Positions 23,662-27,436 of a stretch of 64,000 bases of DNA are shown piece by piece. The number at the start of each line of letters is the position of its first letter. Positions within the stretch are counted from its first letter, which is position 1. This DNA comes from Nitrospira sp. (GTDB lineage: Bacteria > Nitrospirota > Nitrospiria > Nitrospirales > Nitrospiraceae): assembly GCA_005116745.1 (NCBI GenBank), contig SWDS01000008.1, positions 182,912 through 246,911 of the forward strand, read 5' to 3'. The notes under the pieces are model-generated. The model was not told the origin of the DNA and did no database searches. It was given only the letters and a program-made list of their open reading frames with translations. The position numbers and the translations under genes are program-made.

Positions 23662-24048
23662 ATGAGTACCACTAAAACGAATCAACAGCCATCCATTGAG
23701 CGCTGGGTCCGCATCCCCGACGGTACGAAAGTACGTCATCGCTCGGAGGCCTATGATGGGGTCATTGACGGCTTAACGGAGATCGTCTCTGGATCAGAAC
23801 GTAACCCGGACGGGAAAACGCAATATCGCGTGAATGTGGGAGACAGTACACGACTGCTCGTCTCGGAGAATCACCTCAATATTCTGGTTGACAACAAAAA
23901 TATGGTTCTCCTCGCTCGTGAATCCGAACTGTATCGCCGATCGGTCACCGACCGGCTCCGAGCGGTTTTCCCGGATGATCGGTTCGTGACGACTGGAGGC
24001 AAAGTGCCTGCGTCTAAAGTACCTGCGTCTATCGAGAAGTCGCAGTGA
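23662..24048 (+). CDS. hypothetical protein
   Basis: The 128-residue soluble product begins with a beta-rich, SH3-like segment (RWVRIPDGTKVRHRSEAYDGVIDGLTEIV...KTQYRVNVGD), followed by a helical end with a short duplicated phrase (KVPASKVPAS). The first part looks like a small nucleic-acid- or protein-binding barrel; that is inference. No family is recognised. Confidence 0.55.
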   Translation: MSTTKTNQQPSIERWVRIPDGTKVRHRSEAYDGVIDGLTEIVSGSERNPDGKTQYRVNVGDSTRLLVSENHLNILVDNKNMVLLARESELYRRSVTDRLRAVFPDDRFVTTGGKVPASKVPASIEKSQ

Positions 24049-24109: not shown

Positions 24110-24379
24110 ATGAATACATCATGGGGGACCAAAGCCCCACACCGGCGGAAGCGAGCTATTCTTCGAACCAAGGTCCGTTGGGAGATGCTGGGACTTCAAG
24201 ATCCGACCCAGTCGTCATTGGCACCGTCGATTGAGGATATTCGTCGCCAGATCACTTCAGCCGCAAGTCAGGGATTGAGCCCTGATACACTCTCTCGCTC
24301 TCGCGAGAAAGAGGGACGCCAAAAGCCTGGGTCCAAGGCGTCAGCGGCTCCCCGCAAGCGCGGTAGCACCTCGCAATAG
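24110..24379 (+). CDS. small basic hypothetical protein
   Basis: The 89-residue product is rich in Arg, Lys and Ser (HRRKRAILRTKVRWEMLG; C-terminal KEGRQKPGSKASAAPRKRG). It is probably nucleic-acid-binding by composition. GGAGAAG precedes the ATG. It is followed closely by two further very small genes in the same direction. Confidence 0.45.
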   Translation: MNTSWGTKAPHRRKRAILRTKVRWEMLGLQDPTQSSLAPSIEDIRRQITSAASQGLSPDTLSRSREKEGRQKPGSKASAAPRKRGSTSQ

Positions 24380-24416
24380 CTTGATCTAGGCGAGTCGTGC
24401 CTGAAAGGAGGGCATC

Positions 24417-24602
24417 ATCGGAGGAACAGGCAAAACCACACCCGCTAAGCGGGACCGTGAGAAAGCGCGTCTGCAGAAGCAACGGGACAAGGAAGAGCGC
24501 CGTGTGCAACGGAAGGCCGCCAAAGTCGACCGTCCAGAGCAAGAGGGTGAAGACCCTGACCTCGCGGGCTTACAATGGGGGCCTCAAGATCCGCTCTATT
24601 AA
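24417..24602 (+). CDS. 61-residue basic protein with apparent ATC start
   Basis: The frame reads (I)GGTGKTTPAKRDREKARLQ..., then KQRDKEERRVQRKAAK, ending EGEDPDLAGLQWGPQDPLY. It is closed upstream by TGA at 24402 and contains no ATG, GTG or TTG before the coding part. An excellent AAGGAGG (24405-24411) sits five bases before ATC at 24417, exactly where a start codon belongs. The product, a basic coiled segment with an acidic and aromatic tail, looks real. Either ATC is used, or the start was lost by mutation. Confidence 0.5.
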   Translation: MGGTGKTTPAKRDREKARLQKQRDKEERRVQRKAAKVDRPEQEGEDPDLAGLQWGPQDPLY

Positions 24603-24728
24603 TGGACAGTCTGCACGTGGCATGATGTCCTTGTGATGCCTGCCGACCATAGTTCACTGAATCGAGGCCGCATGTTCTGAACTAGTACCTGACTCAGCAC
24701 GGACTGGTTGCTCCAATAAGGAGTCAGC

Positions 24729-24806
24729 ATGTCAATTAAGATAACTATCTCACTAAATAATAAGGAGAAATCATGGACATCAATACCATCATATTTTTTG
24801 CTGTAA
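24729..24806 (+). CDS. possible 25-codon leader ORF
   Basis: ATG preceded by AAGGAG at five bases; reads MSIKITISLNNKEKSW and ends inside the membrane peptide gene in another frame. It might couple translation to that gene. Weak evidence. Confidence 0.25.
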   Translation: MSIKITISLNNKEKSWTSIPSYFLL

Positions 24807-24856
24807 TTATTGGGCTCGGGATCGGCGGTGTGATCGTATATCTGAAGGGCAGGTAG
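24773..24856 (+). CDS. 27-residue single-span membrane peptide
   Basis: MDINTIIFFAVIIGLGIG continues into GVIVYLKGR: a short polar start, one hydrophobic span of about 20 residues and a positively charged end, the form of KdpF-like or regulatory membrane micropeptides. AAGGAG lies seven bases ahead. No kdp or other partner gene is adjacent. It is flanked by an AT-rich leader with its own small frame. Confidence 0.55.
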   Translation: MDINTIIFFAVIIGLGIGGVIVYLKGR

Positions 24857-25393: not shown

Positions 25394-27436
25394 CTATGGC
25401 CCAATATGAATCGGATTGGGGCCTGCGACTGATGAATCAGCAGGAAGGTGGGGGGGCTTCTGTATCGGACTAGGTTTTGGGTTATGACCTCTCGCCAGCG
25501 GATGGATTCGCACCATTCCTCCTCGGCCAGTCCCGGGTAGACAGAGCGCATCTTGTTTGTTCCCGAATTGTTCACGAGCCACCAGAGCCGCCTGTCCACG
25601 AGCATAGGTACAGAGTTCACCGGCGATGACCGTTCCATCTCGATCCACATCAGCGAGACCTTGCAAACCCCTTAACAGATGATAGGTAAACAACCCGTGC
25701 TTGCCTTCGTCATACGGATCGGCTTCTTGCAAGCTTCGATTACCCACCATCCACATCTCCACATCTTTCCTGGCCTCGCTGACAGGGGATTCCCAGGCAG
25801 GCAAAGGGATGTCGGCAAGACCGGCGCCAGGGGACGGATCCATCGAGACATCAAACATCAGAATCGCCCGCCGGATTGGCAATCGAGAGAGCGCTTCCTG
25901 AAGCCGGACAAGTGGGTATAACTGCTGCTTCGCCTCGGAGAGCGTCCCATCATATGGCACAAGCGAGATCGCACCGGTCCCGCCATCTACAAGTGCTCGC
26001 CCAGCAAAGAATATATACACAACGGTCTCTTGGTCCGCCCGCTTTCGAAGCCATCGCTCAAACGTGTCTTCCAGGTCCCGTTCGAGGGCCTGGCGGTCAA
26101 GCAATATGCGGATGCGCTCACCTGGAACACCGCCGATGATACGCAGATATTCAGCCATGACTTCCGCATCGTGGCGCGCATACTTAACCGCCGGCATCTG
26201 TTCGTCTCTAAACGTGCCGATGCCGATCGAAATGATGATGGCCTTCGGCTGATGGAATGCCGCCAGAGAGTTCGGCAGGTTGTCGACATTCGGAACCAGA
26301 GCCGGGTTGATGCCTCTGGGTTTGATCCCAAAACTAAAGACCTTGGGTGGCGGAACGGACGTCACCGGACTAGTCGTCCGCAAGTTCAGCGTTAATTCTC
26401 CCTGGAGGGACTCTTGAGAGGCAGTCACCCGTTGTGTCATCGAGGTCCGTTTAATCTCTCCCGATTGGAGCATGCCGAGGTGGACTTCAGAGGGGAACAA
26501 GGCCGATAAGTCGGTTTTTCCTTCAACTAACACCATCACATCTTTTGCCTCCCCCAGGCCCTCGTTTTTGACTTCAATTTGAATCGTGATGGATTCGTCA
26601 GGCTGGAGGAATTGGTCTCCGTTTTCATCTCGGATAATGGCACGAAAACTCAGTTGCGCTGGCCTACCTGTCGTACTCGAAGCCACCTGCTGTGAATTAT
26701 CCGTTGCCTCCATCACCGCGGGGAGCGATGCGACAAGGCCCGCTGTCGACGGCTCCACGGAAGAGCGTGGACGTGACCCCAGTGGAACCCGTGTGTCTCT
26801 TTGGACAGCGTACTCCCGGATCTGCGCGGATTGCCCGATCTGTTGAGCCAATCCATTGGTCGCCGAATCAATGGCCTCTTGAACTATCGACGTCATCCCC
26901 TCGACCTGACAGGGCTCTTGGCCAACTGTTACCGTACCCTGGCCAGTACCTTCGAACTTCTTATTGAAGAGTAACGTTCCCTCGCGCGCCAAAAACATCA
27001 TTTCAATTCCCACCGTGACCATTGCGGGATAGGTTCCAGGCGTTCGTTTTGGAACGGCGAGCTCGATCCGCCTCACACCCACTCCAACTTCAACCACTCC
27101 ATCTGACGCAATGGGTTCATCTGCGTGGCTCTGGGCCGCGACACCAGTAAAGACTCCCGTCAACTTCGTCGGAACGGAGGTGACAAGCGCATCCGTTAGG
27201 GACATGGATCTCACCTCGCCACAACCATCGTGATATGGCAGCTCAGCCGTGGTCACACTGGGGGAAAACCAGATCACTGGCGTCAGTGGAATCGGTTGAG
27301 TACTGACCGGCTCCTTCCCTCGCTTGAGCAGCGAACAGCTGACACCTGACAGGACGAGGATCAGTGCCACACAAGAGGCAATAATGTGACGGTAGGACTG
27401 GCAATAGACAGTCAGTATAGGTTGTAGCTTATTCAC
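25394..27436 (-). CDS. caspase-fold lipoprotein with lost catalytic residues
   Basis: The 680-residue product has a lipoprotein-type signal (LVLSGVSC; Cys34). Residues 60-200 are a periplasmic beta region; 262-370 resemble a CARDB-like adhesion domain (LSFRAIIRDENGD..., ITIQIEVKNEGLGEAKDV). Residues 398-625 have the peptidase C14 fold: IIISIGIGTF, ARHDAEVMAEYL, TVVYIFFAGRA, RRAILMFDVSMD. In active members the third and fourth read FAGHG and DACxSG, so both His and Cys are missing here (R480 and S/M near 531). Two EF-hand-like loops (270-281 and 596-607) may bind calcium. A pseudo-protease scaffold is the likely role. No partner gene is evident. Confidence 0.8.
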   Translation of the reverse strand: MNKLQPILTVYCQSYRHIIASCVALILVLSGVSCSLLKRGKEPVSTQPIPLTPVIWFSPSVTTAELPYHDGCGEVRSMSLTDALVTSVPTKLTGVFTGVAAQSHADEPIASDGVVEVGVGVRRIELAVPKRTPGTYPAMVTVGIEMMFLAREGTLLFNKKFEGTGQGTVTVGQEPCQVEGMTSIVQEAIDSATNGLAQQIGQSAQIREYAVQRDTRVPLGSRPRSSVEPSTAGLVASLPAVMEATDNSQQVASSTTGRPAQLSFRAIIRDENGDQFLQPDESITIQIEVKNEGLGEAKDVMVLVEGKTDLSALFPSEVHLGMLQSGEIKRTSMTQRVTASQESLQGELTLNLRTTSPVTSVPPPKVFSFGIKPRGINPALVPNVDNLPNSLAAFHQPKAIIISIGIGTFRDEQMPAVKYARHDAEVMAEYLRIIGGVPGERIRILLDRQALERDLEDTFERWLRKRADQETVVYIFFAGRALVDGGTGAISLVPYDGTLSEAKQQLYPLVRLQEALSRLPIRRAILMFDVSMDPSPGAGLADIPLPAWESPVSEARKDVEMWMVGNRSLQEADPYDEGKHGLFTYHLLRGLQGLADVDRDGTVIAGELCTYARGQAALVAREQFGNKQDALCLPGTGRGGMVRIHPLARGHNPKPSPIQKPPHLPADSSVAGPNPIHIGP

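Follow-up and report, generated by a model that had tools for sequence, protein, structure and literature searches.

A conserved small gene of Nitrospira very likely starts at AUC behind a strong Shine–Dalgarno sequence

Starts at ATC are very rare in bacteria, and the initiator tRNA, with its CAU anticodon, mispairs with the third base of AUC. The locus described here, in a window of 64,000 nucleotides (the whole stretch of DNA analysed) from a 3.86 Mb, 99.96% complete Nitrospira genome, raises the question of whether a small gene is nevertheless initiated at such a codon, and what such a start might mean. A sequence-only reading had reported an AAGGAGG five bases before the ATC of a 61-codon frame, and the coordinates read as it had them, with GCATC (24412–24416) as the spacer and TAA (24600–24602) as the stop codon:

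24417–24602, + strand: AUC-start gene, 61 codons, protein M/I-GGTGKTTPAKRDREKARLQKQRDKEERRVQRKAAKVDRPEQEGEDPDLAGLQWGPQDPLY, supported by its orthologs, a pN/pS of 0.17 and a conserved start column
24417–24419, + strand: putative AUC start codon, supported by the codons of this column in 140 distinct relatives and by a small residue 2
24405–24411, + strand: Shine–Dalgarno sequence AAGGAGG, 5-nt spacer, near-invariant in orthologs with AUC, AUA or AUU (AUH) starts
24402–24404, + strand: in-frame TGA, which bars an N-terminal extension (stop-to-stop frame 24405–24602)

The TGA lies 15 nt 5′ of the ATC, with just AAG GAG GGC ATC between them, and the frame therefore has no upstream ATG, GTG or TTG. 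The initial claim that it lacks these three codons altogether thus stands for the upstream side but not for GTG, which occurs once, at codon 30 (24504). This GTG has no good Shine–Dalgarno sequence and its codon is not conserved, relatives having Ala, Glu, Leu or Val there, and on these two grounds it was ruled out as the start.

The frame behaves as a protein-coding gene. Over codons 2–61 its pN/pS was 0.17, compared with 1.6–3.3 in the out-of-phase frames; an antisense frame that shares its codon phase gave 0.28. These values rule out a non-coding RNA or a pseudogene, and we conclude from comparative sequence evidence that this is a real small gene under protein constraint. The start boundary is kept in 114 distinct AUH-start sequences. 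In 32 Nitrospira sequences the third bases of codons 1–4 are invariant, whereas those of most other codons vary, as would be predicted where translation starts, and residue 2 was Gly, Ala, Ser or Pro in each of the 83 relatives that made up the first ortholog set, a choice that suits removal of the initiator Met. The codon preceding the ATC varies freely among relatives (ATC, ACC, ACT, CCC, CAC, CTT, TTT or CGT); as this codon and the spacer drift while the ATC is fixed, conservation begins at the ATC codon itself. Together, the sequence comparisons make initiation at AUC very likely.

The protein was present in 74 of the 98 relatives searched, a profile search of 395 genomes from the phylum found it in 130, and the DNA at the gene start was read for 140 distinct genes. 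The start column held ATC in 110, ATA in three, ATT in one, ATG in 23 and GTG in three, so that 114 of the 140 have an AUH start, in the same alignment column as the ATG of distant orthologs. Every main copy read in the genus Nitrospira has ATC, and the other genera of the family mostly do so too, the exceptions being g20, g22 and g27 (ATG) and g17 (GTG). Among related families, f2 has ATC and one ATT, f4 has ATA and f3 has ATG, and in f5, f9 and f13, other families of the class, the small gene starts with ATG. A search of named genomes with a single-sequence query, in which the nearest relatives were Nitrospira metagenome genomes, gave ATC in 36 of 37 loci, all from Nitrospira or Nitrospiraceae and including N. 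moscoviensis NSP M-1; the lone ATG belongs to Syntrophobacteraceae. Orthologs, which had been proposed as the check on the start, align to the ATC without gaps and none is shifted elsewhere, so the suggestion that the gene begins at this codon is borne out by distant orthologs, in f3 and other families of the class, with ATG at exactly this column. The companion idea, that this strain had lost an ATG, has to be given up, along with sequencing error: ATC occurs in the 36 named loci and in dozens of independently assembled genomes, across the genus and most of the family, while related families show ATA or ATT, and it is therefore an old, maintained state. A protein tree built with the start column left out required at least 10 changes among the five start-codon states, and at least seven between AUH and NTG, although the number and direction of these changes are uncertain because the 61-residue tree has many unresolved forks.

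Some relatives carry further copies. A paralog with ATG at the ATC column occurs in the genus Nitrospira (G024, L038), a second copy, an ATG-start paralog (MSTTIKKRHREQ...; L076, L077, L079 and L086), was seen in several Nitrospira genomes that also hold the ATC-start copy, and in g17, g27 and f5 there is a subfamily that has diverged (PKVTAAKRQRERDKAEKRKEKELRR; L203–L205, L207 and L218) and starts at GTG or ATG.

Within the same genomes, the neighbouring genes and the ATG-start paralogs use standard starts, and start choice is therefore not generally relaxed. Across the whole genome, 56 sites of the form AAGGAGG-N4-6-ATC were listed; besides the present one, the window contains three, which were read along with almost all of the remainder. 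Where such a site opens a frame of at least 25 codons, it falls within a longer gene, on the strand opposite one, or immediately ahead of an ATG or GTG; a general relaxation of starts was rejected, as no other convincing gene was found among the sites read.

Two genes precede the AUC-start gene on the same strand:

23662–24048, + strand: 128-aa gene, ATG start, with a homolog in 35 of the 37 named loci
24110–24379, + strand: 89-aa gene, ATG start, ending 37 nt before the ATC, with a homolog upstream in 36 of the 37 named loci

Neither belongs to a Pfam or NCBIfam family. Homologs of the 128-aa gene are not constant in position or orientation within the locus. Those of the 89-aa gene stop 30–57 nt before the ATC in the named loci, a spacing from which the two genes are probably co-transcribed and might be translationally coupled. 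On the 3′ side, a tiny ORF (24773–24856, + strand) with the Shine–Dalgarno sequence AAGGAG encodes a likely membrane peptide of 27 aa, MDINTIIFFAVIIGLGIGGVIVYLKGR, and follows the ATC gene in 12 of the 37 named loci at 52–89% identity. Further on, at 25394–27436 (− strand), lies a 680-aa protein that looks caspase-like (peptidase C14) by eye and has a lipoprotein-like N-terminus.

The strength of the ribosome-binding site goes with the start codon. GGAGG was present in 109 of the 114 AUH-start orthologs, compared with nine of the 23 with ATG, and the median pairing energy of the Shine–Dalgarno sequence was −11.7 kcal/mol in AUH relatives against −8.2 kcal/mol in ATG relatives (p = 6e-7, with sequences counted without correction for phylogeny); in the same comparison AUH relatives also exceeded GTG relatives. 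The gene thus has the strong, well-spaced Shine–Dalgarno sequence of infC-type genes. A consensus pairing of the RNA around the start was not found over 106 sequences, and a conserved hairpin hiding the start was rejected, as the one seen in the gene's own sequence is not common to its relatives.

The AUU, AUC or AUA start of infC is autoregulated by IF3, and infC of the source genome itself starts at ATC (GAGGTGGCCT-ATC, with the Shine–Dalgarno sequence GAGGTGG):

L090, G000:C6:565520–565726, − strand: infC, ATC start (infC of relatives: L099–L128, L229–L248 and L286–L315, with ATC in all families of the class read except f3)

Among 81 infC starts read, 60 were ATC and 21 were ATG. All 21 ATG starts belong to family f3, where the infC N-terminus is four codons longer and the small gene, too, has ATG only. 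The converse fails: in g17, g20, g22, g27, f5, f9 and f13 infC starts with ATC, yet the small gene has ATG or GTG. The AUC-start gene shares with infC an AUH start and a strong Shine–Dalgarno sequence, but its product is not IF3: the single IF3 gene of the genome sits elsewhere, a Pfam search gave no match to the IF3 N-domain in the product, and the protein is instead a 61-aa charged helix with a conserved tail motif, GEDPDLxGLxWGPQxP.

Other precedents bear on how such a start might work. In vitro, IF3 excludes weak third-base pairs (PMC10158994), and in vivo initiation at the GTC of Streptomyces sigR is repressed by this factor (PMC5472188). Like sigR, the present gene keeps a non-canonical start across species, together with an extended Shine–Dalgarno sequence and a small residue 2 suited to Met removal; the codon is AUC rather than GUC, the product is another, and an effect of IF3 is proposed here by analogy. 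The S. aureus genes cvfC1 (AUU, 61 aa) and ccpN (AUA) likewise pair a weak codon that is conserved with an extended Shine–Dalgarno sequence, and their output in poor medium was ~10% of that from AUG (PMC13009471). They resemble our gene in being small or regulatory and in having both a strong Shine–Dalgarno sequence and an AUH start that is conserved, although cvfC1 may be a zinc finger, whereas the protein here has no cysteine.

On this basis, we propose that the strong, well-spaced Shine–Dalgarno sequence and an A-rich early coding region would offset the mispairing at AUC and give weak translation, and that IF3, which normally rejects AUC, AUU and AUA, would hold output low and let it rise when free IF3 drops, as for infC. 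Such an arrangement would serve to keep a basic helical protein scarce or to tie it to the status of the initiation factors. That these lineages exchange ATC, ATA and ATT but rarely have AUG suggests that weakness of the start is selected, and hence that the start is held weak to limit or regulate the amount of protein; control by IF3 we infer with moderate confidence from the analogy with infC-type genes. We consider it probable that AUC, its weakness offset by the Shine–Dalgarno sequence, is the start of a genuine small protein that IF3 represses and that is expressed at a low, IF3-sensitive level.

A simpler arrangement would be an AUC start that sets a fixed low level, with no regulation, for a protein needed in tiny amounts, IF3 having no variable part. 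All the sequence evidence for AUC initiation fits this equally well, and the several lineages in which infC has an AUC start and the small gene begins with ATG or GTG speak for it; the strong, conserved Shine–Dalgarno sequence pulls the other way, since a weak one with ATG would achieve the same more simply, and we think this account rather unlikely. That conserved ribosome-binding site also points to independent ribosome binding, and so counts against coupling, by which ribosomes ending the 89-aa gene would re-initiate, less strictly, at the AUC and fix the ratio of the two proteins. The synteny of the upstream gene and the position of its stop codon agree with coupling, but the gap exceeds the typical case, in which stop and start overlap or lie a few bases apart, and a search for conserved pairing around the start gave none; we regard coupling as unlikely.

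Translation could in principle begin elsewhere, through an N-terminal extension, at the ATC of 24414, at the GTG of 24504, or in another frame, where a 79-aa GTG ORF (24397–24636) overlaps the gene. The in-frame GTG and the overlapping ORF do exist, yet the upstream TGA bars an extension, codon 30 is not conserved, the codon at 24414 is ACC, ACT, CAC, CTT and others in relatives, and the other sense frames have pN/pS values above 2.5, all of which makes a different start very improbable. Less credible still is a special initiator tRNA with a GAU anticodon that would read AUC normally: the 99.96% complete genome contains no GGGNTGATAACCC anticodon arm, ATG is the start of the locus's other genes, and the site itself can also hold ATA or ATT.

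The protein itself is small and highly charged, and searches of Pfam, NCBIfam and PDB gave no relative among profile matches above the cut-off. Its AlphaFold model consists of one helix (residues 9–35; mean pLDDT 77, pTM 0.41), a predicted fold too simple for a meaningful fold search. One guess is that this basic, charged helix could have RNA or the ribosome as its binding partner.

To our knowledge, few genes besides infC keep a start other than AUG, GUG or UUG. Judged by its sequence conservation, the AUC-start gene joins the known precedents (infC, sigR, cvfC1 and ccpN), and its conservation is unusually broad: that of sigR lies within one genus, whereas the AUC start here is kept in several genera and in related families. 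Standard gene-finding programs accept ATG, GTG and TTG starts only, and the gene has therefore probably been missed or mis-started in Nitrospira genomes.

With ATC, ATA and ATT replacing one another and ATG seldom regained, the site offers a natural test of selection on the weakness of the start itself. A further, tentative and rather unlikely possibility is that an IF3-controlled circuit extends beyond infC in Nitrospira and its kin, in which the amount of the small protein would report the status of IF3 or the ribosome, and the protein may act on the ribosome or RNA. If so, the joint loss of AUC in infC and the small gene of family f3 would be a trace of the dismantling of this circuit. The hosts in question, the nitrite-oxidizing Nitrospira, are a group central to nitrification.
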